Source: Acutalibacter sp. 1XD8-36 (GTDB taxonomy: Bacteria > Bacillota > Clostridia > Oscillospirales > Acutalibacteraceae). Taken from it: DNA of 64,000 bases. Positions 5,344 to 33,435 of this stretch are shown in pieces. Where the stretch lies: positions 1 through 64,000 of the forward strand of contig NZ_QZDU01000007.1 of the NCBI RefSeq assembly GCF_009917525.1, read 5' to 3'. Numbering within the stretch: the first letter of the stretch is position 1; each line of letters begins with the position of its first letter. Both the position numbers and the translations under genes were made by a program. The notes under the pieces were generated by a model, which ran no database searches, was not told the origin of the DNA, and saw only the letters and a program-made list of their open reading frames with translations.

Positions 5344-5391
5344 GTGGCTGGACCTCCCGAAAGTTTTAAGTTGACCGGCGAAACTAATCCC

Positions 5392-5420
5392 AGTATAGCA
5401 CAGCAAAACGGCGGAGTCAA
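5392..5420 (-). promoter_or_regulatory. Promoter of the DUF5714 gene
   Basis: On the minus strand TTGACT (5420-5415) and TATACT (5397-5392) are separated by 17 bases, about 50 bases before the start codon. Confidence 0.7.
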
Positions 5421-5487
5421 CAATGCCAAGGCTGCGGCGATAGTTGAAATGTTTACCCCCGACTCCAATTACACAAAAAATAAAAGC

Positions 5488-5516
5488 TTGCATATTCCCC
5501 CGCTCTTTGCTACAAT
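5488..5516 (+). promoter_or_regulatory. Promoter of the cyclophilin lipoprotein gene
   Basis: TTGCAT (5488-5493) and TACAAT (5511-5516) are 17 bases apart and lie about 34 bases before the TTG start. Confidence 0.75.
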
Positions 5517-5549
5517 AGTGGGGAAATATTTTTGTAGGAGGACAAACAC

Positions 5550-9700: not shown

Positions 9701-9719
9701 TGTACTCGCTCCTTTACAG

Positions 9720-10927: not shown

Positions 10928-11313
10928 CTCTTTCCCTCCGCAAATTCCACAGCCTGGACAAGCCAATCCAGCAGCTCGCCGTCAATCCCGCCGGGCCCGG
11001 TTATTACCGCGTGATGGGTCCAGCGGCCAGAGTACGGCTCCGTGGCGGTGAGCCTGGGGGAGCTGAGCCTTTGGCCCAGCCCAAAGGTGACTGTGAGGAA
11101 ATCGCCCTTTATCCCCGGGCGCACCCGGTTAAAGGACACACAGGCGAACATGCGCCGCCGGAAAAAGGATATTTGGGTGGCCTTCACCTGCACCTCAAAG
11201 GGGCCGGCCTGCTCTGTAAGCATCTTTAATAGCCTTTCGTAAATGGGCAGAGCCCCGGGCCTTTTATTAAAGAAAAGCAGTATGTTTTCATCTATGGCAT
11301 TAGAAGAATCCAA
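10924..11313 (-). CDS. DUF5655 domain protein
   Basis: The 129-residue protein matches the DUF5655 pattern: KATQISFFRRRMFACVSFNR, then LTVTFGLGQRLSSPR, RWTHHAVI and LLDWLVQAVEFA. The domain also occurs at the C-terminus of DUF4287 proteins and is thought to bind small ligands or nucleic acid, but no function is established. The frame begins with TTG at 11313, overlapping the AEC gene by 14 bases; no in-frame ATG exists nearby. It ends in a four-base overlap with the GNAT gene, so expression is tied to both neighbours. Confidence 0.75.
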   Translation of the reverse strand: MDSSNAIDENILLFFNKRPGALPIYERLLKMLTEQAGPFEVQVKATQISFFRRRMFACVSFNRVRPGIKGDFLTVTFGLGQRLSSPRLTATEPYSGRWTHHAVITGPGGIDGELLDWLVQAVEFAEGKR

Positions 11314-12238
11314 AATAATTCAACCCCCATATAGAAAGGAACATGGTGCCGATAGACAGCACCGAGCTGAACACTACCAGCTGCCCGGCAAGCTGGTCGT
11401 CCCCGCCCATCTGCTGGGCCATTGTGAAGCTGGACACGGCGATTGGCGAGCCGAATACCGTAAGCAGCACCGCTAGGTTGGCGCCCCTGAAGCCCATGAG
11501 GATGGCGGCGCCCACGAAGGCCGCGGGGTAGACGATAAGCTTCATGAAAAGGGTTATGAGCAGGGGGCGCGCGCAGCGCCCGGTCTCGCCAAAGCTCATT
11601 GACGCCCCCAGCACCACGAAGGCAAGGGGAGTGGCGATACCGCCAATGGTAGACATGGTGCTGTGGAGCACATTGGGCAGGTACCAGTTGAAGCGGGTGA
11701 AAAGTATGCCGATAATGGAGGCAATTATAAGCGGGTTTGTGGCTATCCCAAGGAGCACCCCCCAGAGGTTCGGGCGCTGTCCGTTGAACATCTCCAGGGC
11801 CAGCACAGCAAGGGCGTTAAACATGGGGATTATAACGGCTATCAGCAGCGAGGCAGTTCCCGCGGCCCTGTCCCCGAAAAGGGCCATGCTGATGGGTATG
11901 CCGAAGAGTACAAAATTGCTGCGGAACATCCCCTGGAGCATTACCCCCCGCCGGGAGTTGTCCTGCTCTGTCAGGAGCACCAGCACCAGGGACACCAGGA
12001 ACTCTATGAGCACCCCGGCAGCGGCGAAGAACAGCAGATTGTTCTGGAGGCTGACTCCTTCCCCGGTATCGTATATGTTTATAAAAATCATCAGCGGCAG
12101 GAAGACCTTGAAGATACACTTATTAACCTGCCGGGCCGAGGCCTCGTTTAAAAGGCCTGTGAGCCGTATAATATAGCCCGCTACCATTATAAGGAATAGG
12201 GGGACTACGGCGTTGACGGATATAAAAAGGCTGTCCAA
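11300..12238 (-). CDS. AEC-family transporter (auxin efflux carrier-like)
   Basis: The 312-residue membrane protein has about ten hydrophobic segments and the AEC/PIN-like signature NKCIFKVFLPLMIF near residue 40, and MQGMFRSNFVLFGIPI in the middle. Bacterial members move organic anions such as malate or other carboxylates. A di- or tricarboxylate substrate would suit the aconitase and isocitrate dehydrogenase genes in the same leftward run, but this is inference. It starts at TTG 12238 with aaggaggg about nine bases upstream, and is the first gene of the operon. Confidence 0.85.
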   Translation of the reverse strand: MDSLFISVNAVVPLFLIMVAGYIIRLTGLLNEASARQVNKCIFKVFLPLMIFINIYDTGEGVSLQNNLLFFAAAGVLIEFLVSLVLVLLTEQDNSRRGVMLQGMFRSNFVLFGIPISMALFGDRAAGTASLLIAVIIPMFNALAVLALEMFNGQRPNLWGVLLGIATNPLIIASIIGILFTRFNWYLPNVLHSTMSTIGGIATPLAFVVLGASMSFGETGRCARPLLITLFMKLIVYPAAFVGAAILMGFRGANLAVLLTVFGSPIAVSSFTMAQQMGGDDQLAGQLVVFSSVLSIGTMFLSIWGLNYFGFF

Positions 12239-12304
12239 CTTTGGGACCCTCCTTGGCTATAGGGGTTATATAGCTTTGAATTTATATGGCTTTAATATGC
12301 TAAT

Positions 12305-12333
12305 AGTATATCACAAAACTAACCCCTTGGCAA
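12305..12333 (-). promoter_or_regulatory. Promoter of the AEC to icd operon
   Basis: On the minus strand TTGCCA (12333-12328) and TATACT (12310-12305) have 17-bp spacing. It lies back to back with the larB promoter, with 14 bases between the two -35 boxes. Confidence 0.7.
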
Positions 12334-12347
12334 GTTGTCCCCGGGGC

Positions 12348-12376
12348 TTGTAAACTCTCCCCAAATGCAGTATAAT
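12348..12376 (+). promoter_or_regulatory. Promoter of larB
   Basis: TTGTAA (12348-12353) and TATAAT (12371-12376) are 17 bases apart, about 30 bases before the larB start. Confidence 0.75.
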
Positions 12377-12405
12377 ATAGGTAATTTGCGAAAAGGAGAG
12401 GGAAA

Positions 12406-13152
12406 ATGGACCAGGCAGACATTAAAAATATACTCGAGCAGGTGAAATCCGGGGGCTGCACCGTGGACGAGGCCCTGCTGAAGCTCAAAATGGAGCCCTT
12501 CCGAGACCTGGGCTTTGCCAAGGTGGACGGCCACAGGGGACTGCGCCAGGGGGCCGCTGAGGTCATCTATGGCGCGGGGAAGACCCCTGAGCAGATAAGG
12601 GACATTGCCGCCAGCATGAGAAAGGACGGAGAGCAGGCGGTGCTCATAACCCGCATGAGCCCGGAAGCGGCGGGGGTGGTGGGGGAGGCCCTGCCCCTTG
12701 AATACCATGAGATGGGAAGGGTCGGCATTGTGGGCCGTATGCCGGAGCCCACCGGGAAGGGGAATATTGTCGTTGCCACCGGCGGCACCAGCGATATGCC
12801 TGTGGCTGAGGAGGCGGCCCTCACCGCCCAGGTGCTGGGCAACCGGGTCGTAAGGCTCTATGACGTGGGTGTGGCGGGGCTGCACAGGACCCTTGCCCAC
12901 CTTGAGGACCTTATGAGCGCCCGGGTGATAGTAGCCATAGCCGGGATGGAGGGGGCGCTTGCCAGCGTTATAGGCGGCCTTGCGGACTGTCCGGTGATAG
13001 CCGTGCCCACAAGCGTGGGGTATGGGGCGTCCTTCGGGGGGCTCTCCGCCCTGCTGTCCATGCTGAATTCCTGTGCCAGCGGGGTGAGTGTGGTGAACAT
13101 TGACAACGGCTTCGGCGCGGGGTACCTTGCAAGCATGATAAACCATATCTAG
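12406..13152 (+). CDS. larB: LarB, pyridinium-3,5-biscarboxylic acid mononucleotide synthase
   Basis: The 248-residue enzyme carboxylates and hydrolyses nicotinic acid adenine dinucleotide, the first step to the nickel-pincer nucleotide cofactor of lactate racemase and related enzymes. The C-terminal ~150 residues are PurE-like: IVVATGGTSDMPVAEEAA, VYDVGVAGLHR-like YDVGVAGLHRTL, VAIAGMEGALASVIGGL, and PVIAVPTSVGYGASFGG. The N-terminal ~90 residues with VDEALLKLKMEPFRDLGFAKVD and the H-R-G motif are typical of LarB. Length is full. The start is preceded by aaaaggag. A LarC-type gene follows 36 bases later; larE and larA are not in the window. Confidence 0.95.
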   Translation: MDQADIKNILEQVKSGGCTVDEALLKLKMEPFRDLGFAKVDGHRGLRQGAAEVIYGAGKTPEQIRDIAASMRKDGEQAVLITRMSPEAAGVVGEALPLEYHEMGRVGIVGRMPEPTGKGNIVVATGGTSDMPVAEEAALTAQVLGNRVVRLYDVGVAGLHRTLAHLEDLMSARVIVAIAGMEGALASVIGGLADCPVIAVPTSVGYGASFGGLSALLSMLNSCASGVSVVNIDNGFGAGYLASMINHI

Positions 13153-13188
13153 CAATATACTTATATATTATAGCAGGGGGGAACGGCT

Positions 13189-13608
13189 ATGACCGATGAG
13201 ATAACAGAGCTGAGCTGCAACCTGGACGACATGTCCCCCGAGGGCATTGGCTTTGCCATGGAGGTGCTGCTGAACGAGGGGGCGCTGGACGTGTTTACCA
13301 CGGCTATAGGCATGAAGAAATCAAGGCCTGGCACAATGCTCACCTGCCTCTGTAAGCCCGGCGACAGCGAGAAAATGGCCCGGCTTATCTTTAAGCACAC
13401 CACCACCCTGGGGATAAGGGAGAGCCGCTGCAGGCGCTATACCCTGGAGCGGAGCTTTACAGAGGCCGAGACTGAGTACGGCCCGGTGCGCATAAAGCAC
13501 GTTGAGGGCTGGGGGACAGAGAGGGAGAAGGCCGAGTATGAGGACCTTGCGAAAATTGCCCGGGAGCAGGGGCTGAGCCTTGAGGAGGCCCGCAGGCTTT
13601 TGGAATAA
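13189..13608 (+). CDS. larC: LarC C-terminal domain (LarC2-type nickel insertion protein)
   Basis: The 139-residue protein corresponds to the C-terminal third of LarC, the CTP-dependent nickel insertase for the pincer cofactor. LSCNLDDMSPEGIGFAMEVLLNEGALDVF, and AIGMKKSRPGTMLTCLC, then TTTLGIRESRC are the known LarC2 blocks. In Lactobacillus plantarum the full protein is made by frameshifting from larC1 into larC2. Here no LarC1 sequence lies upstream: the gene has its own ribosome site (aggggg) and ATG and directly follows larB. It may be a stand-alone subunit with the N-terminal part encoded elsewhere. Confidence 0.85.
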   Translation: MTDEITELSCNLDDMSPEGIGFAMEVLLNEGALDVFTTAIGMKKSRPGTMLTCLCKPGDSEKMARLIFKHTTTLGIRESRCRRYTLERSFTEAETEYGPVRIKHVEGWGTEREKAEYEDLAKIAREQGLSLEEARRLLE

Positions 13609-13649
13609 AAATTTTAATTATTATATTATAATATAAGGAGGACTATATA

Positions 13650-14267
13650 ATGAATGTACTTATGATTAACGGCAGCCCGCATAAAGAGGGGAACACCTAT
13701 ATTGCCCTGCACGAGATGGAGAAGGTATTCCAGGCCGAGGGCTTTGAAACGGAGATTCTGCACATAGGCAATAAGGCCATAAGGGGCTGCGTGGGGTGCA
13801 GAAGGTGCGGGGAGCTGGGCCGCTGTGTGTTTGACGACGCTGTAAACGAGGCCGCGGAGAAGTTCGCCCGGTGTGACGGCCTGGTTGTGGGCAGCCCGGT
13901 GTACTATGCCTCGGCAAACGCCACGCTGGTTGCATTTCTCACTAGGCTTTTCTATAGCTGCGGCTGTGACAAGACAATGAAGGTGGGCGCGGCTGTGGCG
14001 GCGGCCAGAAGGGGCGGGCTCACGGCGACCTATGACGAGCTAAACAAATTTTTCGCCATCTCGGGCATGCCCATTGCCAGCGGGCAGTATTGGAACGGCA
14101 TACACGGACAGACCCCAGGGCAGGCCCTGGAGGACGCGGAGGGCCTGCAGATGATGAGGACACTTGCCAGTAACATGAGCTTTTTGATGAAGAGCATAGC
14201 CCTTGGGCGGGAAAGGTACGGCCTGCCCGAAAAGGAGCCCAAGACGTTTACAAACTTCGTAAGGTAA
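13650..14267 (+). CDS. Flavodoxin-fold NAD(P)H-dependent reductase, Fe-S flavoprotein-like
   Basis: The 205-residue protein starts MNVLMINGSPHKEGNT, the FMN phosphate loop of the NADPH-dependent FMN reductase/iron-sulfur flavoprotein family. CVGCRRCGELGRCVFDD supplies the compact cysteine cluster that usually binds a 4Fe-4S centre, and VVGSPVYYASANATLVAFLTR is the second FMN block. It should shuttle electrons or reduce quinone-like compounds in the cytoplasm. It follows the larC-like gene by 41 bases with aggagg upstream, so it may belong to the lar transcript. The electron partner is unknown. Confidence 0.87.
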   Translation: MNVLMINGSPHKEGNTYIALHEMEKVFQAEGFETEILHIGNKAIRGCVGCRRCGELGRCVFDDAVNEAAEKFARCDGLVVGSPVYYASANATLVAFLTRLFYSCGCDKTMKVGAAVAAARRGGLTATYDELNKFFAISGMPIASGQYWNGIHGQTPGQALEDAEGLQMMRTLASNMSFLMKSIALGRERYGLPEKEPKTFTNFVR

Positions 14268-14283
14268 AATTTAATTGTAAGGG

Positions 14284-14312
14284 TTGCAAAATTTCGCCTA
14301 TTCGTGTATGAT
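14284..14312 (+). promoter_or_regulatory. Promoter of the CZB chemoreceptor gene
   Basis: TTGCAA (14284-14289) and TATGAT (14307-14312) are separated by 17 bases. It is a housekeeping-type promoter, not a flagellar sigma-28 type. Confidence 0.65.
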
Positions 14313-14376
14313 AGTAGCAGTACGCACTCCGTGGCGGCGGTACCGCCGAAAGCTGACGAAAGAAAGGACAATAAGT

Positions 14377-16026
14377 ATGGGAAAGAGTATCAAACGGTCG
14401 ATAGCTATAAGGGCAGCGTTAGCGCTGGCGGCAATGCTGCTGTTTAGTTTTATCACCACTGCAAACACCTTCAAAATCGATAACACCCAGGAGCAGGCTA
14501 AGCAGGCCAGCGCCCTTCTGGAACGAGCCCAGAAGGCTGAGGCCGCACACTATAAGTGGTCCCAAAATCTGTCGAACGCTCTGTACGCAGGGACCGAGTT
14601 TACCGGCAGCACAGACCCTACCGGCTGTGTTTTAGGCCAGTGGCTCTATGGGGAAGCCGGCACGGAGAACGAGGCAGTGCTCAGCCTGCGCTCGAAGCTT
14701 GAGCCCCTGCATAAGGAGCTGCACGAGTCTGCTACATATGTCCTGGATTTGCATAAGAGCGACCCCCAGGCCGCGCAGGAGTATTACCAGCAGACCATAG
14801 GCACAAACCTTTCCACCCTGGTGGGGTATCTGGACCAGGTGGTGGAGGAGGGCACGCTCCTAAGGGACGAGACCCAGAAGACCATGGATGATACAACATT
14901 CACCATGCAGGTCACAACAGGCACCTGCCTGCTGCTGGCGCTGGTATGCCTTATGAGCCTTATCTACTATGTGATTACCCGGGCCGTAAACCCGATAGTC
15001 GCCATAAGCAAGAGCAGCTCCGTAATGCAGGAGGGGCGGCTCAACCTGGAGCTGGACTACCGGTCGCAGAACGAGCTGGGCAGGCTTGCCGATATCCTCA
15101 GGGACAGCCTTGCGACCATAAACGGCTATGTCTCAGACATCAACCGTATTATGGGCGAGATGTCCAACGGCAACTTTGATGTGAGCACATCTGAGGAGTA
15201 TATCGGAGACTTTGCCAGCATACAGGCCTCTATTGAGAGCCTGACTACCACCCTATCTATGGCTATGGGCCAGATAAACCAGTCGGAGATAAGGATATCC
15301 GGCAACGCCGAACAGCTCTCAAGCAGCGCCCAGTCCCTGGCCCAGGGAGCTACCGAGCAGGCCAGTGCCGTGCAGGAGCTGTACGCCACGCTGGACGGCG
15401 TATCCCGCAGCGCCCAGAGCAATGTGCAGACGGCTACCGAGGCACAGGAGCGCGCGCGCCTTACCGGGGAACAGGTCGCCCAGAGCGAGCAGAAGATGGA
15501 GCAGATGGTGTCCGCAATGGAGGACGTGAGCTCCTCCTCCGAGCAAATAGGACAAATCATCACCACTATCCAGAATATCGCGTTCCAGACCAATATACTT
15601 GCCCTGAATGCCGCGGTTGAGGCCGCAAGGGCCGGTGAGGCCGGCAAGGGCTTTGCGGTCGTTGCCGACGAGGTGCGCAGGCTTGCCGCCCAGTCTGACG
15701 AGGCCGCCGCCGCTACCACTGAGCTTATAGACAACTGTGTGGCCGCAGCCAGCCGCGGCAGCGGGATAGTGGCGGAAGTCTCCGCCGCCCTGGAGGAGAC
15801 CATGGAGCTGGTGAGCCGGTCCAATGAGGATATCGGCGTTATCGCTGACGCTGTGCGCGGAGAGGCCGAGTCCATTGCCCAGGTCACCGAGGGCATTGGT
15901 CAGATATCCGCGGTGGTGCAGACCAACTCCGCAAGCAGTGAGGAGTCCGCAGCCGTAAGCTCCGAGCTCTTTGCCCAGGCGAAGAACCTGAGGGAGCAGA
16001 CCAGCCGTTTCAGGCTGAAGGATTAA
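14377..16026 (+). CDS. Methyl-accepting chemotaxis protein with extracytoplasmic CZB-like sensor
   Basis: The 549-residue receptor has TM1 at about residues 8-28, an outside domain to ~177, TM2 at ~178-203, HAMP to ~260 and a signalling domain with the hairpin tip [23 protein letters not shown]. The outside domain shows the spacing of a chemoreceptor zinc-binding (CZB) domain: H58-x-x-W, C84-V-L-G-Q-W and the LHKELH helix (H112, H116). CZB domains bind zinc and are redox or hypochlorite sensors in other receptors, usually in the cytoplasm. ATG 14377 follows agaaagga; the open frame extends upstream without a better start. No flagellar or che genes are nearby. Confidence 0.87.
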
Positions 16027-16052
16027 AAGTTTCGTCCACCTTTTCAAAGGTG

Positions 16053-16078
16053 GCAGGGTGCGGGGCAGAGCCCCGCGG
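16053..16078. repeat. Dispersed intergenic palindrome, copy 1
   Basis: The 26-base core contains gcagggtg, then the stem gcggggc/gccccgc with a 3-base loop. A near copy lies at 21372-21397, likewise just behind a gene. A second small stem (ccaccttt/aaaggtgg) precedes this copy. Confidence 0.6.
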
Positions 16079-16137
16079 CCCACTTCGGGCAGCGCCTATA
16101 GCGCAGTGCCCGCCAAATCACCCCATAAACCCTAAAG

Positions 16138-16167
16138 AAAAAGCACCCGCTTCGGCAGGTGCTTTTT
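16138..16167 (+). terminator. Terminator after the CZB chemoreceptor gene
   Basis: Stem aaaaagcacc/ggtgcttttt (16138-16147, 16158-16167) with an inner gcttcggc tetraloop structure and a T-run. Confidence 0.85.
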
Positions 16168-16242
16168 AATGTATACCCCTAAACTCATTTATAAAATATT
16201 TACAACCCGGCAACAATCTCTTAAAAATATTTATAAAAGGAC

Positions 16243-16271
16243 TGGAAAAACCCGGAGACCTGTGATATAAT
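16243..16271 (+). promoter_or_regulatory. Probable promoter of the ABC exporter-MATE operon
   Basis: A consensus TATAAT (16266-16271) is preceded at 17 bases by the weak -35 TGGAAA (16243-16248). A weak -35 often means activator dependence, but no activator is evident. Confidence 0.5.
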
Positions 16272-16320
16272 ATTAGCTTGTGATGACAACCCCAAACGGC
16301 GAAAAAAGGAGGAAAACAGC

Positions 16321-18105
16321 GTGATTTTCGGCAGGCATATGAACCGTTATTATCTGAAGTTTGCCCCCATACTGCTAATGGGCCTCGGGGCCCTCATAGC
16401 GGTGGACTACTTCCAGCTGGTGATACCAAACCTTTATCAGATGGTGATAAACGGCATAAACCAGGGCTTTGTGGAGGTTGACGGGCAGACGGTGCCATTT
16501 GATATGGGCTTCCTGCTAGACAGGATATGTATGCCCATGGTAGTGGTAATCCTGATAATAGTTGCCGGGCGCTTTTTCTGGAGGCTCTGCTTTATGGGCA
16601 GCGCAATCCGGCTTGAAGCGGACCTTCGCAACCGGATGTTTGACAACTGCAAGAATCTCAGCCGGGAGTTCTATCAGGAGAACAAGGTCGGCAATCTGAT
16701 GAGCCTTTTCACCAACGACCTTGATACCGTGCAGGACTGCTTCGGCTGGGGAGTGCTCATGTTCTTCGACGCGTTCTTTATGGGCGGCATGGCAATAGTA
16801 AAGATGTGGAGCATGAACCCGCTGCTCACAGGCCTCTCAATGATACCCATGGCCTTCCTGCTCTGCTGCGCCACAATAATCGGGCGCAAAATGATGGAGC
16901 GCTGGGAGATACGCCAGGAGGCCTTCTCCAAGCTCTCGGACTTCTCTCAGGAGAGCTTCTCAGGGATAGCCGTTGTGAAGGCCTTTGTGAAGGAGGCAAA
17001 GGAGCTTCTGGCCTTTAAGGAGCTCAATAAGGAGAACGAGGTGGCGAACATAAACCACACCAAGATATCCGTGCTCTTCAGGATATTCGTCTCCCTGTTT
17101 ATTGAGAGCGTGGTCTGCGTTATCCTTGGCTACGGCGGCTTCCTGGTTTATAAGGGCATATTTAATGCCGGCCAGCTTGTGGAGTTCATCGGTTACTTTA
17201 ACGCGGTAATTTGGCCCATTATGGCTGTGGGCGAGCTTATCGACATGACCTCCAGGGGCCAGGCCAGCATGAACCGGGTAAGCGAATTGCTGGATGCGGC
17301 ACCCACCGTGGTGGACAGGCCCGGCGCAAAGCCCCTGGAGCAGGTGAAGGGCGGCATAGAGTTCAGGAACCTGACCTTCAAGTACCCCGACGGTGAGTAC
17401 GACGCCCTGGAAAATATCAGTTTCAGGATTGAGCCCGGTGAGAACGTGGGCCTGGTGGGCAAGACCGGCTCAGGCAAGACCACATTGGTGGATTTGATAC
17501 TGCGTACATATAACGTGCCTGACGGGACCCTGTTTGTAGACGGCCACGATGTGAACGATATTACAATCCGCTCCCTGAGGGACGGCTGCTCCTATGTGCC
17601 CCAAGATAATTTCCTGTTCTCGGACACTATAGAGCATAATATAGCCTTCGGCGTAGAGGACTACGACGACAAGACAATCACCCAGTATGCCAAGCTGGCA
17701 GACATTGCAAACGACATAAAGAAGTTCCAGCACGGCTATCATACTGTCCTTGGGGAGCGCGGCGTGACGGTCTCCGGCGGGCAGAAGCAGCGAATCTCCA
17801 TAGCTAGGGCCTTGATGAAGAACGCCCCCATACTAATACTGGACGACTCAGTTTCGGCGGTGGACACCAAGACCGAGCGCGCCATACTCCAGAACCTCAG
17901 GGAGACCCGGGCGGGCAAGACCACCATACTTATCGCCCACCGGATTTCCACCATCGAGCAGATGGACAAGGTGCTCTTTATTGACGAGGGCAGGCTTGTG
18001 GCGGCTGGCACCCATGAGGAGCTCTACAGAAGCTGCCTGGAGTACACAAAGATGGTAGACTTGCAAAAGCTGGACGAGGAAGGAGCTGAATATCACAATG
18101 CGTGA
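16321..18105 (+). CDS. ABC exporter half-transporter, degenerate-site subunit
   Basis: The 594-residue protein has an N-terminal six-helix exporter domain (to ~320) and a nucleotide-binding domain with Walker A GKTGSGKTTL, signature VSGGQKQRIS and Walker B ILILDDSVSAVD. The catalytic glutamate after Walker B is aspartate (LDD rather than LDE), the usual mark of the degenerate-site half in heterodimeric multidrug exporters such as BmrCD, LmrCD and EfrAB. It starts at GTG 16321 with ggagg eight bases upstream, and overlaps the next half-transporter by eight bases. The two surely form one complex. The substrate is unknown, with drugs or lipids likely. Confidence 0.92.
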   Translation: MIFGRHMNRYYLKFAPILLMGLGALIAVDYFQLVIPNLYQMVINGINQGFVEVDGQTVPFDMGFLLDRICMPMVVVILIIVAGRFFWRLCFMGSAIRLEADLRNRMFDNCKNLSREFYQENKVGNLMSLFTNDLDTVQDCFGWGVLMFFDAFFMGGMAIVKMWSMNPLLTGLSMIPMAFLLCCATIIGRKMMERWEIRQEAFSKLSDFSQESFSGIAVVKAFVKEAKELLAFKELNKENEVANINHTKISVLFRIFVSLFIESVVCVILGYGGFLVYKGIFNAGQLVEFIGYFNAVIWPIMAVGELIDMTSRGQASMNRVSELLDAAPTVVDRPGAKPLEQVKGGIEFRNLTFKYPDGEYDALENISFRIEPGENVGLVGKTGSGKTTLVDLILRTYNVPDGTLFVDGHDVNDITIRSLRDGCSYVPQDNFLFSDTIEHNIAFGVEDYDDKTITQYAKLADIANDIKKFQHGYHTVLGERGVTVSGGQKQRISIARALMKNAPILILDDSVSAVDTKTERAILQNLRETRAGKTTILIAHRISTIEQMDKVLFIDEGRLVAAGTHEELYRSCLEYTKMVDLQKLDEEGAEYHNA

Positions 18106-25149: not shown

Positions 25150-27846
25150 TTATCCCCTGTTCTGCTCAGGCACCTGGAAAAAGGAGGCGGTAGAGTCGTC
25201 TTTTTTCATAAACAATAGGCCAAAAGACCCCGGCCCGCAGTTGCTGGCAATGGCTGACGAGGCCTTGTGCAGGTATACCCGCTCGAAGGGGCAGTATTGC
25301 TGTACAAGGCTCTGGATGTACTTGAGCTTCTTATCATCCATCCCGCAATAGGTGATGAACAGTATGCGCCGGTCAATGTTTCTGGTCTCTAAGAGCAGCT
25401 TACGCACATAGCTTCTCGCCACCCGGTTAAACCCGCCCATCTTCATGCCGCCGACCACCATCCTGGATTTCCTCAGCACAAGGACCGGGTGCAGCAGCAA
25501 CGAGTCGCAGAGAATCTGTATCTTCTTGGATATCCGCCCGGACTGGCGGAGCATATGGGTATCGTTTATAACAAAGGCGGAGGAGATAAAGCGCTTCATC
25601 CGCTTTGCCGCATCTATGATATCCTCCTTAGAGGCGTGGTGCTCAGCCATATATGCCGCGCATAGCACCACCAGGCCCATGCTGCTGGAGAGGTGCCCGG
25701 AGTCTATGATCGTGACATTCTCAAAGGATTTTGCCGCTTCGCAGGCATTATGATATCCCGCGCTCACATGCTTTGCCATGGTGATATGTATTATGTTCTG
25801 GGCCTCTGTCAGCTTCTGGGCAAAGAAGCGCTCATAGTCCTCAACCTCAGGGGCTTTGGAGTACCCGCTGCGCCCCTCGGCAATATGCATCAGCAGTTCG
25901 TCGGCCTTCAGCTCATCTTCGTCCAGGAAGCGGCCCTCGTCGGTGCACACATAGTACGGGCATACAGGGACGCCAAACTTTTTCCGAAGGGAGCTTGGAA
26001 GGTCGCAGACACTGTCTGTGGTGACCAGAATAGAGCGGCGCTGTACCTGCTCGAAGATTAAGATATCCTTCTCGATATCCGACTGGCTGGCCTCCTCGTT
26101 CAGGTGCACCAGATCCTTGGGCAGGATGCTCAGCACAGCTGCCTCAAGCAGTGCGCCGCTGACAGGCTTTGCCAGGTATCCGCTGAAGCCCTCCTTGCGG
26201 TAGAGTAGCTGGTTGTCGCTGCCGGCGTTGGCGGTGAGGGCCACCACAGGAACGTCCTGGCATAATCCCACAGGCTGGTCCCGCAGGGCGTGCAGGCACT
26301 CTATGCCGTCCATCCCGGGCATCATATGGTCCATTAGTATACAGTCATAGCGGTGGTTTTGGGTGAGCTTCAGGCACTCGGCCCCGCTCTTTGCCGTGTC
26401 TATCTGTATCTTGGTGTCAGACAGCAGCTTGCTCACCACCATCAGGTTCATGTCATTATCGTCCACAATAAGAATATGCGCGTCGGGTGCCTCGAAGCTC
26501 TGCTTGTACTGCTCCCCCTCGTGGCTCCTCGCCCGGGAGGCCAGGGTAAACGTCCCCAGCTCCTTATCATCCACAATGTCCTGGTCCAGCCGGACAATGA
26601 AGGTGGAGCCCTTGGTATAGACGCTGTTCACGCTTATCTCGCCGCCCATCATGTCCACCAGCTGCTGCACAATGCTGAGCCCCAGCCCGGTGCCCTCAAT
26701 ATAGCGGTTGCGCTCCTCGTCCACGCGCCTGAAGGCGTTGAAGATATAGGGGATATTCTCTTTCTTCACCCCCTGGCCGGTGTCCTCCACCGCGTACCAC
26801 ACCCGCACCCGGTTCAGCGCCTGGCGCTCACAGCGCACGGAAAGGGTAACGGAGCCCTCGCTGGTATACTTAACGGCGTTATTAAGAAGGTTTATAAGTA
26901 TCTGTTTAATGCGCACCTCGTCGCCGCAGAGCATACTCGGTATGGAGGAGTCCACGTGCAGCTTGAACTCGAGCCCCTTCTCCTTGGCCTTAATCCATAT
27001 CATATTGACGATTTCCGAGAAGAGCGCTCCTGTCTCGTAGGAGACGTTGACAATTTCCATCTTCCCCGACTTTATTTTAGACAGGTCCAGGGTGTCGTTT
27101 ATCAGGGTGAGCAGCAGTTTGCTGGCCCCCTGGATGTTCCTGGCGTTTTCAGCCACATCCTCGGGGATGTCCCCACGCAGGATTATCTCGTTGAGCCCGA
27201 TGATTGTGTTGATGGGTGTGCGTATCTCGTGGCTCATGCTGGAAAAGAAGTGGTTTTCCGCCCGGTTTAGCTCCTCAATCTCCTTCCTCTGCTGCTTGGA
27301 GAGCTCGTTCTCCTCCTCATACATCCGGTTGAGGAACATGAGCAGAATACTTGTCAAAAGGCCCACCATCACTACCGAAAAGGCGGAGTCAAAGAAGGAG
27401 GACTGCTGAGTGCTCTGGGCGGCAAGGTCGGGATAATAGAAGGCAGCAGCGTAGCATATCAGGGTCTCCGCTATGCAGAGGGTGAAAAACACAGCCATAC
27501 GCCTCCCCCGCAGGGTGAGGCAGACATAGATGAAGCAGAAGATAAACCACTCGGGCACCCCGCTGTAAAACCCGCCCGCCGAGAAAAAACTGACGGGGAA
27601 AAGCAGGAGCAGCAGGATTGTGATAGCCGTGGCCCCGGTCTGTATGCGCTCCTTCTGAATGCTGACCTTTACAATCATCCCCATGGCCACAAGGCTTACC
27701 ACCAACGCCAGGATATTCCATATGCTCCTGCCCATTGGCATGATAAGCAGCAGCGCTACCATGCAGGTGAGGGTCACAATGCGGAACATCCGGTCGCGCA
27801 GGCTTACCCGGTGGTCGTTGATGAGTTCAAACCATTTTTTAATCAC
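25150..27846 (-). CDS. Hybrid histidine kinase-receiver fused to a DegV/FakB-like lipid-binding domain
   Basis: The 898-residue protein has about six membrane helices (residues 22-172), a HisKA domain with FFSSMSHEIRTP (H206), a HATPase domain (N-box 319-328, DTGQGV 355, GTGLGLSI 385), and a receiver (VDDNDMN 461, acceptor D506, lysine K560). From about residue 606 to the end it is a DegV domain: LVTTDSVCDLPSSL, ITMAKHVSAGYHNA, DTHMLRQSGRIS and GPGSFGLLFM. DegV proteins, such as FakB, bind a fatty acid. The fusion suggests a lipid-responsive output or input, which is inference. It starts at GTG 27846 with a weak ribosome site and follows the 27898 kinase by 51 bases, as the third gene of an operon. 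Confidence 0.88.
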   Translation of the reverse strand: MIKKWFELINDHRVSLRDRMFRIVTLTCMVALLLIMPMGRSIWNILALVVSLVAMGMIVKVSIQKERIQTGATAITILLLLLFPVSFFSAGGFYSGVPEWFIFCFIYVCLTLRGRRMAVFFTLCIAETLICYAAAFYYPDLAAQSTQQSSFFDSAFSVVMVGLLTSILLMFLNRMYEEENELSKQQRKEIEELNRAENHFFSSMSHEIRTPINTIIGLNEIILRGDIPEDVAENARNIQGASKLLLTLINDTLDLSKIKSGKMEIVNVSYETGALFSEIVNMIWIKAKEKGLEFKLHVDSSIPSMLCGDEVRIKQILINLLNNAVKYTSEGSVTLSVRCERQALNRVRVWYAVEDTGQGVKKENIPYIFNAFRRVDEERNRYIEGTGLGLSIVQQLVDMMGGEISVNSVYTKGSTFIVRLDQDIVDDKELGTFTLASRARSHEGEQYKQSFEAPDAHILIVDDNDMNLMVVSKLLSDTKIQIDTAKSGAECLKLTQNHRYDCILMDHMMPGMDGIECLHALRDQPVGLCQDVPVVALTANAGSDNQLLYRKEGFSGYLAKPVSGALLEAAVLSILPKDLVHLNEEASQSDIEKDILIFEQVQRRSILVTTDSVCDLPSSLRKKFGVPVCPYYVCTDEGRFLDEDELKADELLMHIAEGRSGYSKAPEVEDYERFFAQKLTEAQNIIHITMAKHVSAGYHNACEAAKSFENVTIIDSGHLSSSMGLVVLCAAYMAEHHASKEDIIDAAKRMKRFISSAFVINDTHMLRQSGRISKKIQILCDSLLLHPVLVLRKSRMVVGGMKMGGFNRVARSYVRKLLLETRNIDRRILFITYCGMDDKKLKYIQSLVQQYCPFERVYLHKASSAIASNCGPGSFGLLFMKKDDSTASFFQVPEQNRG

Positions 27847-27897: not shown

Positions 27898-30426
27898 TTA
27901 TATCCCGGCAATCTGTCCGCACAGCTCCTTATATGCCTGCAAAAGGGCTGAGTGGTGCTCGCGGATAAAGTCTCCGTCGTCCCGCTTGCCCGCAAGCTCC
28001 AGCTCCTTGGCCTGGGCGGAGAGCTGCTCCGCGCCGATAGTCAGGGAGGTGCTCTTGAGGGCGTGGACCTTTACGGCGTACTCGCCCCAGTCCCCGCTGT
28101 CAAACAGGGAGGCTATCTCGTCACTCTTGGCCTGGCACTGGTCCCGGAACATGCAGAGCATTTCCCGGTAGAAGTCCTCGTCTCCGGCGCAGTAGTCAAG
28201 CCCAAGCTGTACGTTTACCCCGGCTTCTGCAAGGGGGGCAAAGGGGGAGGAGGCAGCGGCCCCTGAAACTATAGGCTGGCTCTCCGGGACAGCGGCCTCA
28301 GGCACGGAAATTTCCTCAGGCGCCGGATTTTCCTGCTCAATACCGGCCTCCTCAGAGCCGTGGCTCTGGCTGTACAGAATAGAGCTCTTTGGCAGCACCT
28401 TCCGAAGCACCCGCTCCAATACGGTGCGCTCAATGGGCTTTGGCACAAATTCCGTAAAGCCCTCGCTGCGGAACATCTCCCTGGCGCCGCTGACCGTGTT
28501 GGCAGTCAGGGCAATAACTGGCAGGTCCTGATACATGCCGTCCTTCAGCTCGCGGATACATTTTAATGTCTCCACACCGTCGAAGCCGGGCATCATATGG
28601 TCAAGGAAGATAATATCATAGGACTCATTCTCACACTGCTCTATTGCCTCTCTGCCGCTAAGACAGGTCTCCACGTCTATCCCATAGGTCCCAAGTACGC
28701 CCTTTGCAACAACCAGGTTCATCTCCTCGTCGTCCACCGCCAAAGCCCTGACTCCGACGCAGGTAAAGGGCTTGCGGCCAGCGGCCTGGTCTTCGGCAAA
28801 CCCACGCTCACCGAGCTCACCGTTAAGGATATTGGCGACAGACAGCGCGGAGAAGGGCTTATGTATCACAAGCAGTCCGCTCATGCTGTCCAGGGTGAAG
28901 CCGCGCTCGGCAATAACTATCACCCTCTTGGTATTTGCAAGCTCCTCGTAGTATTCACGGTTTTCCTCGTATTCCGGCTGGGCAATGAACACATGGGTCA
29001 AGTCGTGGGCGCGCTGTATTCTGAGCAGGCCCTCAAAGTTATGGGCCTGATAGCCGTTTACGCCAAGGCCCTTCATCAGGCTGAGTATCAGCCCGTCATA
29101 GTAGCCCTTGACCTCGTCGCTGGCGTACTTATCCGGCTTAAAATAGCACCCGATACATAGCTCGTCCGCATTGGTAAGCATTATACAGGGCCGGTCGTCC
29201 ACAATCCACTGGGGTATAACTATATGGGCGTGGAGCCCCTGCTGGGTCTTGCTGGAGAAATGTATAAAGCCGCCCATGGCGTTTAAGAGCCCCCGGGCAA
29301 TGGGGAGGCCAAGGCCAAGCCCTCCCGCAAGGCGGCTGCTGCCGCTGTCGGCCTGGTAGAAGTCGTCGTACATTTTGGTGAGCTGGGCGTCGGTCATTCC
29401 GATACCGGTGTCGTGGATATCGATAATCAGGTTGATACCGTACCCCTCCCGGCGGTATCCTATGCGGACGTTTACGCCGCCCTCCTCCGTAAACTTTATG
29501 GAGTTCTCCACCAGGATTTTCAGCACATGGGATATCTTTTCCGCGTCCCCGATAAGTACTGCGGGCACCTTCGGGTCGATATCAAAGACCAGCTCAAGGT
29601 GCTGGCGGTTGGACTGCAGGGCGGTGGAGGTTATAACATCGTTTAGCACAGAGGTTATCATATATTCCTCTTTAGCAGGGGTCAGCGTACCGGTCACTAT
29701 CTCTGTATAGTCCATCATATTGCTTATCTGGCTCGACAGACGTTTTCCGGCCATATTTATGGAGGTCACGTCCGAGCGGATATCCGAATTGAGCTCCTTC
29801 CCAAGGGCCACCTCGCTGATACCGATTACCATATTGATGGGGGTGCGCAGCTCGTGGGAGACGTTGGAGAGGAAGACCGCATTCTGCCGCTCTACGGTCC
29901 GCAGCTCTGCAAATATATTCTCGTACCACTTATGCTGGGCAGTGCGGCGGCTAATCCAGTATCTTGCAAGGGAAGTGCCGCCTAGGACTATCACAGCCCC
30001 AAGGACCAGCCGCAGGATGTCGTGGAAACTAAGGGAAGGGGAGATAGTGTGCAGAACAAAAGCATGGTACAGTATTGCCAGGGCATACAGGGCAACCGTC
30101 ACATGCAAAATCCACTTTCTGTTCAGGATAAACAGGGAAAATACCATAATCCCGGCTATAGCCGGGATATCAAATAGACTGGCCTCATGCACGCTGAAGA
30201 AAAAGAACTCAAACAGCAGCAGGCCAGAGCAGAGGCTCTCATAAAGGGTGTCCGAGCCGATTCTCGCAATATGCAGAAACCATACGCTAAAGCAGCCCGC
30301 TATCATCAGGGGGATAATCCAAAGCTCCCAGGCTGTAAGGACTGTGACGATACATAGGACGCTGCTGAAAACAGTAGCTAGAACAGCCAGCAGCAGATGT
30401 TTGCCTGTTTGTTCATCCGCCCTCAT
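27898..30426 (-). CDS. Hybrid sensor histidine kinase with receiver and Hpt domains
   Basis: The 842-residue protein has about six N-terminal membrane helices (residues 11-158), no obvious separate sensor domain, HisKA with FLSNVSHELRTPIN (H191), HATPase to ~420, a degenerate receiver-like stretch (~425-545), a proper receiver from about 560 (LAVDDEEMN, acceptor in IIFLDHMMPG) and a C-terminal Hpt domain with VHALKSTS. This is a complete phosphorelay chain in one protein. Its ATG overlaps the stop of the upstream receiver gene as TAATG, so the two are coupled. The stimulus is probably sensed within the membrane. Confidence 0.9.
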   Translation of the reverse strand: MRADEQTGKHLLLAVLATVFSSVLCIVTVLTAWELWIIPLMIAGCFSVWFLHIARIGSDTLYESLCSGLLLFEFFFFSVHEASLFDIPAIAGIMVFSLFILNRKWILHVTVALYALAILYHAFVLHTISPSLSFHDILRLVLGAVIVLGGTSLARYWISRRTAQHKWYENIFAELRTVERQNAVFLSNVSHELRTPINMVIGISEVALGKELNSDIRSDVTSINMAGKRLSSQISNMMDYTEIVTGTLTPAKEEYMITSVLNDVITSTALQSNRQHLELVFDIDPKVPAVLIGDAEKISHVLKILVENSIKFTEEGGVNVRIGYRREGYGINLIIDIHDTGIGMTDAQLTKMYDDFYQADSGSSRLAGGLGLGLPIARGLLNAMGGFIHFSSKTQQGLHAHIVIPQWIVDDRPCIMLTNADELCIGCYFKPDKYASDEVKGYYDGLILSLMKGLGVNGYQAHNFEGLLRIQRAHDLTHVFIAQPEYEENREYYEELANTKRVIVIAERGFTLDSMSGLLVIHKPFSALSVANILNGELGERGFAEDQAAGRKPFTCVGVRALAVDDEEMNLVVAKGVLGTYGIDVETCLSGREAIEQCENESYDIIFLDHMMPGFDGVETLKCIRELKDGMYQDLPVIALTANTVSGAREMFRSEGFTEFVPKPIERTVLERVLRKVLPKSSILYSQSHGSEEAGIEQENPAPEEISVPEAAVPESQPIVSGAAASSPFAPLAEAGVNVQLGLDYCAGDEDFYREMLCMFRDQCQAKSDEIASLFDSGDWGEYAVKVHALKSTSLTIGAEQLSAQAKELELAGKRDDGDFIREHHSALLQAYKELCGQIAGI

Positions 30427-30785
30427 TATGCTTTTATCTCCTGCGCGACCCTTTTGAGCAGCTCCTGGGGCTGGAAGGGTTTTTTCAGATAGTTCACTGC
30501 ACCCATTTTGATAGCGCTTACCACGTCCCCCTCAAGGCCTGAGGCTGTCAAAAATATCACAGGTACGTCTTCCACAAATTCCTTCATGCGCTGGAAGGTC
30601 ACAAAGCCGTTCATCTTTGGCATCTCAATATCCAGCAAGACCAAATCCACCTTCTCATGCCTTAGCATATGCAGCGCATCCATGCCGGAGCTTGCAAGAA
30701 GCACGTCATAATTTTTCTTTAGTATGATTTTGGTTCTAGTCAAGTTCATTTCGTCGTCATCCACAACTAAAATGCGTTTTTGCAT
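30426..30785 (-). CDS. Single-domain response regulator
   Basis: The protein of about 119 residues is only a receiver domain: ILVVDDDEMNLTRTKIILKK with the acidic pocket, LVLLDIEMPKMNG with the acceptor aspartate, FLTAS and NYLKKPF with the invariant lysine. It has no DNA-binding output, so it should relay phosphate, for instance to the Hpt domain of the next gene, or act by protein contact. The start at 30785 has ggtgg six bases upstream; an ATG four codons earlier (30797) is equally possible. It is the first gene of the three-gene signalling operon. Confidence 0.85.
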   Translation of the reverse strand: MQKRILVVDDDEMNLTRTKIILKKNYDVLLASSGMDALHMLRHEKVDLVLLDIEMPKMNGFVTFQRMKEFVEDVPVIFLTASGLEGDVVSAIKMGAVNYLKKPFQPQELLKRVAQEIKA

Positions 30786-30912
30786 ATAAGCCACCATGCC
30801 GGCCCCTGTACAGTCTGCGCGGATATATGTGAAAAAGTGCAGACGAAGGGCTCCCTTTCTTTAAAATATAGGCTGCGCTATAGAATAATTTATTAGCACA
30901 TATACACAATAT

Positions 30913-31954: not shown

Positions 31955-33322
31955 TCAGGTTCTTCCCGCAAAGAATTCATCTATCTCTTTTCTAATCTCC
32001 TCATGCTTCATATGCTTCAGCAGATACCCCGACGGATTCAGGGGCATTACCTTTATCATGCTCTGAGGGTCCCTGCGCCCTGTGAGGAAGATGACCGGCA
32101 CCTTCTCAAACTCCGGGACAGTGCGGAGCATTTCCAGAGTCTGGGCCCCGTCGCATACGGGCATTTCATAGTCCAGCAGCACCAGGTCCGGCTGGTCCAG
32201 GGAGATGGCTCTGAAGGCCGCAGCGCCGGAGTCCACCAGAGACACCTCGTAGTCCGGCTCCAAAAGGGACTTCATGCCCTGGCGTATGGTGGCGGAGTCG
32301 TCCACCACCAGTATCTTTTTCCTGTAGTGCTCCTCCTCATACTGCTCCTTGGCGCTGCGCTCGCTGAGGTATCTTTCAACCTCCTTCATGGCGTTCTCGT
32401 TCTCAAGGGGCGTGAGCACCGAGGCCTCCAGCAGGTGGGGTGCTATGGCGCAGTAGGCGAAATACCCCGCGCCGCCGGTGTTGAACAGCAGGCTGACCTG
32501 GGGCTTCTCCCGCTCAAATATATCCTGGAACTGCTCAAAGGAGAGAAGGTTTTCCTCCTTGAGCTCGCAGTTTTTGCCGGTCTCGATAAACTCCATGACC
32601 TTGCCCACAAACTGCCTGGCTGTATACCTTGCCGCGTGCACCAGCATACTGTCCATGCGGTTTGACTGTATTCCAAGTATCTTGCCCACGGTGTTCACAA
32701 GCAGGGTCTCCTCAAAGACCATCAGAACCTCCTGGCGGGTCTCGGAGTCCTTTGAGCCGTAGGCAAGCCTGTAGTACACGCCCTTGCCGAACTTCTCGCC
32801 TCCATATGTCTCGCTGACTACCTTGGACTCCAGGTGGAACAAGTCAAAGACCAGCTGGATTATGACCTTCTTCAGCGCCTCCAGCTCGTCCTCGGGGAGA
32901 AGCTCTCCCCATTTGCTTATGTTCTTCCCGGCGATGGCCTGGTCCTCAGTGAGGGTATGGCCCACAAGCCACCCGGTGCATACGCCGATAAAATGCTCTA
33001 TGGCCTCCTGGGAGTAGTTGCTCTGCTCCAGCTCCTGCTCAAGGGCGGGAAGGGTGTCTTCCCTGAAGCCCTTATGTATCTTCTTGTGCCGCTCCAAGCC
33101 CTCATAGCCCATAGTGGCCATATAGAGCTCCTCCTCGGCGAAATGCTTCACGGCGTGCCCGCGGAAGAACTTGATACCCTCCTGGCAGGTGCGCCGGTAA
33201 TTCTCGCCGTCTTCGGCTGAGGAGAACAGCTTATTGATGATTTTGAAAAGCCGTTTATGCTCCTTGTCAATCTCCTCAACCCCGATTTCATATTCTTCGA
33301 GCCACTCAAGTTGACCGTCCAT
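31955..33322 (-). CDS. Bacteriohemerythrin-(CheX-like)-receiver protein
   Basis: The 455-residue protein starts with a complete hemerythrin domain: H22, H60, E64, H79, H83, H122 and D127 stand in the spacing of the di-iron site, in DKEHKRLF, HFAEEELYM, ERHKKIH and GHTLTEDQ. Residues ~165-315 look like a CheX/CheC-type phosphatase domain, a tentative call. Residues 334-455 are a receiver with ILVVDDSATIRQ and acceptor D383. The combination would link oxygen or nitric oxide binding to a phosphorelay. The true start at 33322 has aggagg six bases upstream; the frame is open further up without a ribosome site. Confidence 0.85.
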   Translation of the reverse strand: MDGQLEWLEEYEIGVEEIDKEHKRLFKIINKLFSSAEDGENYRRTCQEGIKFFRGHAVKHFAEEELYMATMGYEGLERHKKIHKGFREDTLPALEQELEQSNYSQEAIEHFIGVCTGWLVGHTLTEDQAIAGKNISKWGELLPEDELEALKKVIIQLVFDLFHLESKVVSETYGGEKFGKGVYYRLAYGSKDSETRQEVLMVFEETLLVNTVGKILGIQSNRMDSMLVHAARYTARQFVGKVMEFIETGKNCELKEENLLSFEQFQDIFEREKPQVSLLFNTGGAGYFAYCAIAPHLLEASVLTPLENENAMKEVERYLSERSAKEQYEEEHYRKKILVVDDSATIRQGMKSLLEPDYEVSLVDSGAAAFRAISLDQPDLVLLDYEMPVCDGAQTLEMLRTVPEFEKVPVIFLTGRRDPQSMIKVMPLNPSGYLLKHMKHEEIRKEIDEFFAGRT

Positions 33323-33435
33323 ATATATCCTCCTGTGCTGAGTATTTCCCATAAAGTATAGCACAAAAAAACAGGCCTGTCCATTCCTAAAAGGGAAAAT
33401 AATACGCCATTTAAGGCACCCTGAAAACAGCAAAA

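Follow-up and report, generated by a model that had tools for sequence, protein, structure and literature searches.

We propose a single phosphorelay shared by the hybrid histidine kinase carrying a C-terminal DegV domain (here the DegV kinase), the partner hybrid kinase encoded directly upstream and a receiver protein. In this relay the DegV domain, a former FakB, would act as a cytoplasmic regulator that probably binds lipid. We give this reading a probability of about 0.55. The window, meaning the whole 64,000-nucleotide stretch of DNA that was analysed, encodes all three proteins (Table 1).

Table 1. Kinase cassette of the window, with the domains of the DegV kinase.
Feature	Positions	Strand	Evidence
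Hybrid histidine kinase 6TM-HisKA-HATPase-REC-DegV, 898 aa	25150..27846	-	ORF, Pfam, at least 80 relatives, active-site residues
Membrane part at the N-terminus (residues 1-180; six modelled helices)	27307..27846	-	Full-length model, hydropathy
HisKA + HATPase_c, residues 198-422, H206	26581..27255	-	Pfam, conservation
Receiver, residues 458-571, D506	26134..26475	-	Pfam, conservation
Flexible receiver-DegV linker, residues 585-603	26038..26094	-	pLDDT <50, full-length model
DegV (ex-FakB) domain, residues 606-881	25204..26031	-	Pfam, own-genome search, model pLDDT 92.3, Foldseek to FakB structures
Partner hybrid kinase HisKA-HATPase-REC-Hpt, 842 aa	27898..30426	-	ORF, Pfam, conserved directly upstream
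Lone receiver, 123 aa, 1 nt common with partner kinase	30426..30797	-	ORF, Pfam, census

The DegV kinase is read from a GTG start in one uninterrupted frame, as the original prediction had stated; that prediction omitted the strand, and the plus-strand translation of the same interval contains stops. Every Pfam match in the protein exceeded its curated cut-off: HisKA (198-261, 57 bits), HATPase_c (308-422, 94 bits), Response_reg (458-571, 87 bits) and DegV (PF02645, 606-881, 139 bits vs. a cut-off of 27). The features that define a hybrid kinase, namely the HisKA phospho-histidine, the HATPase N and G boxes and the receiver aspartate, are all present. The phospho-acceptors are those predicted earlier: H206 was kept in 81 of 82 aligned proteins, the remaining one showing a gap, and D462, D463, D506, T538 and K560 were invariant in all 82 aligned proteins. 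All four predicted DegV landmarks (TDSVCDLP, HVSAGYH, LRQSGRIS and GPGSFG) were found in the translation. The membrane helices also predicted number six in the full-length model, and a hydropathy scan gave six stretches, partly overlapping. The full-length model had a pTM of 0.41 and does not fix the domain-to-domain geometry.

We have then searched for the HisKA-HATPase-REC-DegV architecture, as had been proposed, and retrieved at least 80 loci from gut and rumen clostridia; at least three families have such fusions. The relatives include Schaedlerella arabinosiphila DSM 106076, Butyrivibrio sp. XPD2002 and Butyrivibrio sp. VCB2006, strain names that suggest that cultured hosts exist. Scanning of the genome contigs revealed that, among the matches listed, the kinase core and DegV were encoded in 80/80 loci and shared one frame in 79/80. 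The DegV-kinase gene lay in two frames at locus L085, and at L066 undetermined residues left the beginning of the domain unreadable. This recurrent one-frame fusion excludes a sequencing error that joined two genes, which had been named as a possible refutation. The same data bear on the view that DegV is a decayed passenger domain without function, or an assembly artefact. The domain is indeed less conserved than HK and REC, with a median identity to the window of 0.45 (HK 0.68, REC 0.63), but the conserved frame, the spread over at least three families and the domain's own conserved signature positions already contradict this view, which we consider hardly tenable. In the class sample, fused DegVs scored at least 281 bits and standalone DegVs at most 262 bits. 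Outside that sample there was no clean score gap between the two, since in sets f31 and f46 the scores of long frames extended as low as 262 bits, and those of 287-319-aa frames reached 269-297 bits. Genes in the 80 listed loci were called by greedy choice of the longest ORF, which missed L038, L070, L099 and L114. L006, L066, L071 and L085, and then near-identical sequences (77 to 72), were left out before alignment; alignment A1 comprised the window and all 72 sequences, A2 the window and 51 of them. The sequences are kin to each other, so that counts across loci are not independent.

The domain was predicted to be a FakB-like module, and a comparison of its structural model with FakB had been suggested. 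The model kept the FakB fold, with Foldseek TM scores of 0.83 to 2dt8 (a fatty-acid-binding DegV of T. thermophilus) and 0.82 to 5uto (palmitate-loaded FakB1 of S. aureus). The FakA C-terminal domain and DhaK (EDD fold) were distant fold relatives with a much weaker TM to the query (0.45-0.54). Besides fold and DegV profile, the domain shares with FakB1 and 2dt8 the TDS and GPG motifs and, where FakB has Thr62 and Ser95, residues with a hydroxyl (the window has S663 and S695); it differs in being part of a membrane kinase and in its Fak residues. Thus, the FakB-like fold of the original prediction was borne out, whereas the attributed carriage of fatty acids for FakA was not, Arg205 and His270 being replaced.

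Arg205 of FakB serves in docking to FakA and the membrane and is completely conserved in FakB (PMC8892158). Its position corresponds to M803 in the window, and none of the 108 kinase-fused DegVs had R or K there (Met, Phe, Ile, Val or Leu instead), while the 55 standalone DegVs had R in 53 and K in one. We have considered G804 as the Arg205 counterpart and dropped it, the same Gly being present in 53/55 standalone DegVs; Arg205 is lost whichever register (803 or 804) applies. The basic residues of columns 801 and 803 have turned hydrophobic in the fused family. His270, part of the carboxylate hydrogen-bond network, corresponds to N869 and was replaced in 105/108 fused domains (N in 101, H in 2, one gap). 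Arg173, required for catalysis, is kept in the window as R771 and was found in 51/109 fused domains, about half, and in 55/55 standalone ones; the Ser171 position was partially lost in the fused family. The hydroxyls were kept in 93/109 (Thr62 position) and 78/109 (Ser95 position) fused domains, the counts over 109 including L017. Taken as a set, Arg173, Arg205 and His270 were all kept in 0/108 fused DegVs vs. 52/55 standalone DegVs. The fused set counts L007, L148, L085, the second DegV frame in L102 and L114, which are cut, split or partly matched, and leaves out L017, whose DegV follows 500 aa of unrelated sequence, and identical domain strings; the 55 standalone DegVs exclude those standing free in the kinase cassette.

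These residues also decide on the idea of an ordinary FakB fused to a kinase and serving FakA. The match to FakB/DegV was significant in both sequence and fold, and the host genome encodes a FakA and three further DegVs besides the fused one. However, with the Fak residue set absent from every fused domain, and with Arg205 and His270 lost in 4/4 free-standing cassette forms too, we have rejected a working FakB, and this idea is very improbable. Judged from its residues, the DegV domain is a former FakB and not a FakA carrier. With His270 lost, and Arg173 and Ser171 lost in part, it is equally conceivable that the pocket has ceased to accommodate a fatty acid; if an acyl ligand is bound, its head group is possibly other than a free carboxylate, given the change of His270 to Asn.

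The free-standing forms of 287-319 aa were found directly downstream of an HK-REC-Hpt kinase in four genomes. All four have a hydroxyl residue at both the Thr62 and the Ser95 position. At L173 the order is DegV and then kinase, and L204 has a 419-aa DegV-Hpt protein behind a kinase lacking Hpt. Searching the f31 genomes in which a DegV stands free (299) added no form beyond the three that were already known. In the tree, 114 ex-FakB domains formed one clade (support 0.94), within which the four free forms split from the 110 others (support 0.97). This branching beside all fused forms supported an order in which entry of the domain into the kinase operon preceded its fusion.

The second kinase and the lone receiver that had been noticed beside the DegV kinase were both recovered as ORFs with Pfam matches. 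The partner kinase has a hydrophobic N-terminus and ends 51 nt before the DegV-kinase start. Among the matches listed, a hybrid kinase, or its visible part, lay directly upstream of the DegV kinase in 73/80 loci; the others were L085, one contig edge, one call on the opposite strand and four loci with no call. At L085 the census took the first half of the DegV kinase itself as the upstream gene, and the partner kinase precedes that half. A direct search found an upstream ORF in 79/80 listed loci, one being this first half. The two kinase genes overlapped by 4 nt in 16/72 pairs.

The distribution of Hpt domains follows the pair. In the listed loci, a DegV kinase with a C-terminal Hpt had an upstream kinase lacking Hpt in 5/5 cases, and the other loci carried the Hpt histidine on the upstream kinase in 72/74. 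L110 has Asn in place of the Hpt histidine. Across 36 further regions, 9/9 readable DegV-Hpt kinases sat behind a kinase without Hpt and 21/26 other DegV kinases behind a kinase with one. An Hpt stood behind DegV in 15 loci, a count in which the two locus sets may overlap; the sets have at least two loci in common, judged by contigs of equal length (G953/L055 and G721/L075). By these domain counts, the kinase pair carries one Hpt, which sits either C-terminal to DegV or on the upstream partner. The pattern applies to the kinase pair and not to the neighbourhood, extra separate Hpt-like ORFs being present close to pairs already provided with one (L069, L075, L168, L169 and L180).

Kinases can pair as heteromers, as in RetS/GacS, and the DegV domain might be a ligand-free module for protein-protein interaction that holds the twin kinases in such an assembly. 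The hydrophobic columns 801 and 803 would fit a former FakA-docking face now packing on protein, and the identities of the twin kinases co-varied (Pearson 0.91, 3153 pairs, shared descent not removed). The retained DegV fold speaks against a module without ligand, as do the Thr62- and Ser95-position hydroxyls present in most fused and all four free-standing forms, and we regard it as doubtful.

Across the 80 listed loci, the nearby receiver protein was a lone receiver in 33 and carried GGDEF and/or HD-GYP in 23 (HD-GYP in 20/80); in some relatives, REC-HD-GYP or REC-GGDEF proteins occupy the place of the lone receiver. Within the limits used, a receiver protein was not found in 23/80 listed loci, six of them near a contig edge, and the caller misses small genes. 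Since the lone receiver encoded in the window lacks an output domain, control of c-di-GMP in this organism is suggested by analogy only.

DegV could alternatively be the output of the receiver that precedes it: its lipid loading would change once D506 is phosphorylated, and the kinase would in this way steer lipid handling directly. The REC-effector order, the intact receiver and the flexible linker between receiver and DegV agree with this. The replacement of Arg205 (108/108) and His270 in fused domains would, however, preclude lipid hand-over to FakA in the known way. The four free-standing forms have no receiver of their own, L173 has the order DegV then kinase, and in 15 loci an Hpt follows DegV. 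These observations have lowered our estimate for this alternative, which is improbable.

The finding of the free-standing forms slightly raised the odds of the shared-relay reading, from about even. Under this reading, the two membrane-anchored hybrid kinases would work together, probably as a complex, and the pair's single Hpt would serve both before phosphate passes to the response regulator, that is the lone receiver here and a c-di-GMP phosphodiesterase or cyclase in relatives. The DegV domain, a FakB-type fold devoid of the FakA-docking Arg and the active-site His, would have left fatty-acid metabolism. Most likely it still holds an acyl chain or another hydrophobic ligand, and the domain would set the state of the kinase. 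It would have come in as a separate protein beside an HK-REC-Hpt kinase and been fused later to the second kinase. A fuller scenario can be put forward tentatively. After a single recruitment next to an HK-REC-Hpt kinase of Clostridia, a FakB-type protein would have given up its role with FakA and subsequently become part of a second hybrid kinase; in the resulting lipid-gated twin-kinase relay it would now signal the presence of an internal acyl ligand to a c-di-GMP output, with horizontal spread between families of gut Clostridia.

The original prediction had not covered the signs of horizontal spread, the c-di-GMP partners of relatives, the free-standing form or the arrangement of twin kinases that share a single Hpt. 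It did state that no experimentally described system of this type was known, and among the papers listed by our literature searches on the DegV-kinase fusion nothing relevant was seen either; in the accessible part of PMC12688256, DegV comes up solely as one of the genes in a deletion. Two known systems can be compared. In Xanthomonas, RpfC/RpfG senses the fatty acid DSF, RpfC doing so via its N-terminal region according to the accessible text of PMC5391125. Our partner kinase resembles RpfC in layout, being a multi-TM hybrid kinase with REC and Hpt, and the REC-HD-GYP proteins of related loci resemble RpfG. By contrast, that text describes no DegV, the present cassette has a further hybrid kinase as well as the DegV fold, and the window has a lone receiver in place of a REC-HD-GYP protein. 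In S. aureus, as far as the available portion of PMC5539427 goes, free fatty acids act on the two-component system SaeRS through a fatty-acid pool kept low by FA kinase. Fatty acids thus influence a two-component system in a Gram-positive there as well, but no DegV domain is described in the kinase in that portion.

If the proposed relay is true, gut and rumen Clostridia would possess a lipid receptor in the cytoplasm that feeds into a phosphorelay, and in relatives into c-di-GMP, in a layout comparable to the DSF sensing of Xanthomonas. It would also represent the conversion of a metabolic carrier into a signalling domain through specific, testable residue changes, with a free-standing stage surviving.

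ORF and Pfam analyses placed the HisKA-HATPase-REC-DegV architecture of the original prediction in a single uninterrupted frame on the minus strand, and the second kinase and the lone receiver proposed as its neighbours were both found upstream on the same strand. A full-length model of the DegV kinase displayed six N-terminal helices, followed by the kinase core, the receiver, a linker and the DegV fold.

Features of the DegV kinase and of its neighbours
Feature	Position	Strand	Details
DegV kinase	27846 to 25150	minus	single 898-aa frame, GTG start
HisKA	residues 198-261 of DegV kinase		Pfam, above cut-off
HATPase_c	residues 308-422 of DegV kinase		Pfam, above cut-off
Response_reg	residues 458-571 of DegV kinase		Pfam, above cut-off
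Receiver-DegV linker	residues 585-603 of DegV kinase		low confidence in full-length model
DegV	residues 606-881 of DegV kinase		Pfam, above cut-off
Partner kinase (HisKA-HATPase-REC-Hpt)	27898-30426	minus	842 aa; 51 nt gap to DegV kinase; Pfam
Lone receiver		minus	123 aa; upstream of partner kinase, one base common to both; Pfam

Farther upstream of the lone receiver, Pfam analysis of the window revealed a gene for a protein with a metallo-beta-lactamase fold and another (31955-33433, minus strand) whose single 492-aa product has a hemerythrin domain and, after it, a receiver (ORF, Pfam); a 97% match adjoins the cassette in locus L037, and other loci had at most partial matches. Between the HATPase and the receiver of the partner kinase, ~150 residues (about 407-560) matched no Pfam family and by eye resemble a degenerate receiver.

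A scan of genome contigs confirmed at least 592 relatives, of which the best 80 loci were kept. Kinase and DegV shared one frame in 79 of these 80, the exception being L085, where the gene lies in two frames; the beginning of the L066 DegV domain was unreadable. The concern that a sequencing error had joined two genes was not borne out, and such an artefact is ruled out as the source of the fusion. Across 82 aligned proteins, the window's included, the proposed phospho-acceptors H206 and D506 were invariant, as were N323, the two acidic residues of the receiver, T538 and K560, with a single gap at H206 as the sole departure.

Structure prediction of the DegV domain gave a confident fold (mean pLDDT 92.3, pTM 0.90), and the best solved relatives retrieved with Foldseek were fatty-acid-binding DegV and FakB proteins (TM 0.83 to 2dt8 and 0.82 to palmitate-loaded FakB1, 5uto). 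According to two reports, the network that holds the carboxylate in FakB1 consists of Thr62, Ser95, His270 and Ser171, and FakB proteins have a completely conserved Arg173, required for catalysis, and Arg205, required for FakA binding and membrane contact (PMC8892158, PMC9136124). In a comparison of 108 distinct kinase-fused and 55 distinct standalone DegV domains, none of the fused domains (0/108) had the full set of Arg173, Arg205 (or Lys there) and His270, versus 52/55 standalone DegVs, the remaining three showing a gap at His270. Columns 803 and 801 (window protein numbering) were the most diverged. At column 803 (Arg205), the fused domains had Met (41), Phe (30), Ile (11) or Val (9), whereas 53/55 standalone DegVs had Arg; at column 801, Met, Ile, Val or Leu stood against Lys in 53/55. 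Column 869 (His270) was Asn in 101 of the 108 fused domains. When the fused domains were taken together with L017, a hydroxyl was kept at the Thr62 position in 93/109 and at the Ser95 position in 78/109. Since the hydroxyls are mostly kept and columns 801 and 803 are hydrophobic, the pocket side has been partly retained and the FakA side has changed from basic to hydrophobic.

Judged by these residues, the kinase-fused DegV domain is an ex-FakB, a domain with the FakB fold that lacks the residues of FakA function. The predicted DegV/FakB identity thus held for the fold and failed for the role of FakA carrier, the Fak residue set being absent from all fused domains. The window's genome encodes one FakA and three other DegVs, and these three DegVs keep Arg173, Arg205 and His270. 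In L017 (1-2343, plus strand), ~500 residues that match no Pfam family precede a DegV of the standalone type, which retains Arg205 and His270; in L039 a standalone DegV that has the Fak residues (4829-5773, plus strand) lies just upstream of the cassette's lone receiver.

Free-standing ex-FakB forms were rare. An unfused DegV of 287-319 aa lay directly behind an HK-REC-Hpt kinase in four genomes (L198, L199, L200 and L201), corresponding to 3/299 genomes in family f31 and 1/58 in family f46. All four had Arg205 replaced by Phe or Ile, His270 replaced by Asn and the hydroxyls present; a REC-GGDEF or REC-HD-GYP gene was also within the stretch read at L199 and L200. Other arrangements behind a kinase without Hpt were a 419-aa DegV-Hpt protein (L204) and a permuted DegV-HisKA-HATPase frame (L173, 5410-7599, plus strand, gene end beyond the fetched region), the latter locus also encoding a separate Hpt protein of 134 aa. 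In FastTree analysis, with the root placed by assumption within the standalone DegV group, 114 ex-FakB domains formed one clade apart from standalone DegVs (support 0.94), with the four free forms separating from the other 110 (0.97); in the tree without the free forms, 106 fused domains formed one clade (0.73). By parsimony, the Fak residues would have been lost on joining the kinase operon, prior to fusion.

A hybrid kinase, or its visible part, was directly upstream of the DegV kinase in 73 of the best 80 loci. The other seven comprised L085 (its own first half upstream), one contig edge, one opposite-strand call and four uncalled cases, and direct search found an upstream ORF in 79/80. In five of these loci (L082, L083, L102, L103 and L109) the partner kinase lacked Hpt and the DegV kinase carried one behind its DegV domain. 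The upstream kinase had the Hpt histidine in 72/74 of the other loci, the exceptions being L110 (gene upstream of 8801-11467), with Asn instead, and L085. The pattern was then tested in 36 further regions. Ten DegV kinases there had an Hpt (HxLKS motif) at the C-terminus, and the partner lacked Hpt in all nine cases where it was readable. In the other 26 regions, the partner carried Hpt in 21 (genes being split in L172 and L181); in three (L177, L189 and L173) the partner lacked it and the locus encoded a separate Hpt protein, and two (L192 and L193) were not classifiable. Extra separate Hpt-like ORFs near five pairs already with Hpt (L069, L075, L168, L169 and L180) count against a strict one-Hpt rule. 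The Hpt shifts position within the kinase pair and was never seen twice in it, as a shared relay predicts. Two DegV-kinase cassettes lie in tandem in L073, the second (11669-17810, plus strand) accompanied by a separate Hpt-like protein.

Regarding output proteins, a lone receiver was found within 6.5 kb upstream or immediately downstream in 33 of the best 80 loci, a group that includes the window, and receiver proteins bearing GGDEF and/or HD-GYP were found in 23 (HD-GYP in 20). The receiver was a REC-Hpt fragment of the upstream kinase in one locus, and no receiver protein was found in this range in 23, six of them near contig edges. The HD and GYP motifs were present in 20/20 HD-GYP domains and the GGDEF motif in 11/11. 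In L068, a 1122-aa HisKA-HATPase-REC-Hpt-REC-HD-GYP protein (1400-4768, plus strand) directly adjoins the twin kinases, bringing relay and c-di-GMP output into a single chain.

The taxonomic range of the architecture, as mapped here, covers the window's own family, f31, f46 and rumen or gut clostridial records. Relatives among the listed matches came from Lachnospiraceae, Oscillospiraceae, Butyrivibrio, Schaedlerella and an Anaerotruncus strain, with many rumen or gut assemblies; from named records, f31 is probably Lachnospiraceae. The profile used for searching was built from fused DegV domains (72 relatives plus the window), kinase domains being confirmed for fetched regions only. Class-wide, 9/391 genomes had a match in a frame of at least 724 aa (five from f31, three from f46 and that of the window), with scores of 281 bits or more against 262 for the best shorter frame. 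In f31, 50/299 genomes matched at E<=1e-72 (65 matches, 58 in frames of at least 724 aa); in f46, 34/58 matched, 33 of these in frames of 890-958 aa. Within the family of the window, at least 3/300 genomes (own, G125 and G147) were recognised by identity among the matches listed in a single-sequence search.

The window's genome was compared with 16 others, those of f31 being chosen mainly for strong DegV matches. Identities of kinase and FakA were 90% and 75% for the congener G125, 74-78% (in two contig pieces) and 58% for G147 of the same family, and 46% and 31% for G357 of f46. Nine f31 genomes showed 72-79% (eight) or 62% (one) for the kinase and 40-43% for FakA; a tenth, G499, showed 51% and 41%. 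The congeners G217 and G282 gave no match at the cut-off used. Because the kinase is about equally similar between families and within one, the data point to horizontal movement between families, with FakA as a single yardstick gene rather than a species tree.

Phosphate transfer from His to Asp, then to Hpt and a response regulator is the established logic of hybrid-kinase relays. In the proposed mechanism, signals would reach two membrane kinases, and phosphate would follow this route through the Hpt of the pair to the response regulator. The DegV domain, which cannot serve FakA, is most likely a sensor of an internal hydrophobic ligand that would shift the kinase balance, and this regulator would have been a separate protein first and a fused domain later. 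RpfC/RpfG offers the best parallel in function: there a fatty acid is detected by a multi-TM hybrid kinase that regulates a phosphodiesterase of the HD-GYP type (PMC5391125). In RpfC the sensing part is the N-terminus (PMC5391125), whereas the DegV domain is the proposed sensor here, and the window, with a lone receiver only, falls outside the RpfC/RpfG type. Free fatty acids can also act on a Gram-positive two-component system, according to a report on SaeRS (PMC5539427). In agreement with the original prediction, no description of an HK-REC-DegV protein was found in the open-access literature searched, a scope with few subscription journals and no bioRxiv preprints. The architecture is presumably listed in domain databases. 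Overall, the system is probably a hybrid-kinase phosphorelay of a known kind into which a repurposed DegV domain has been built.
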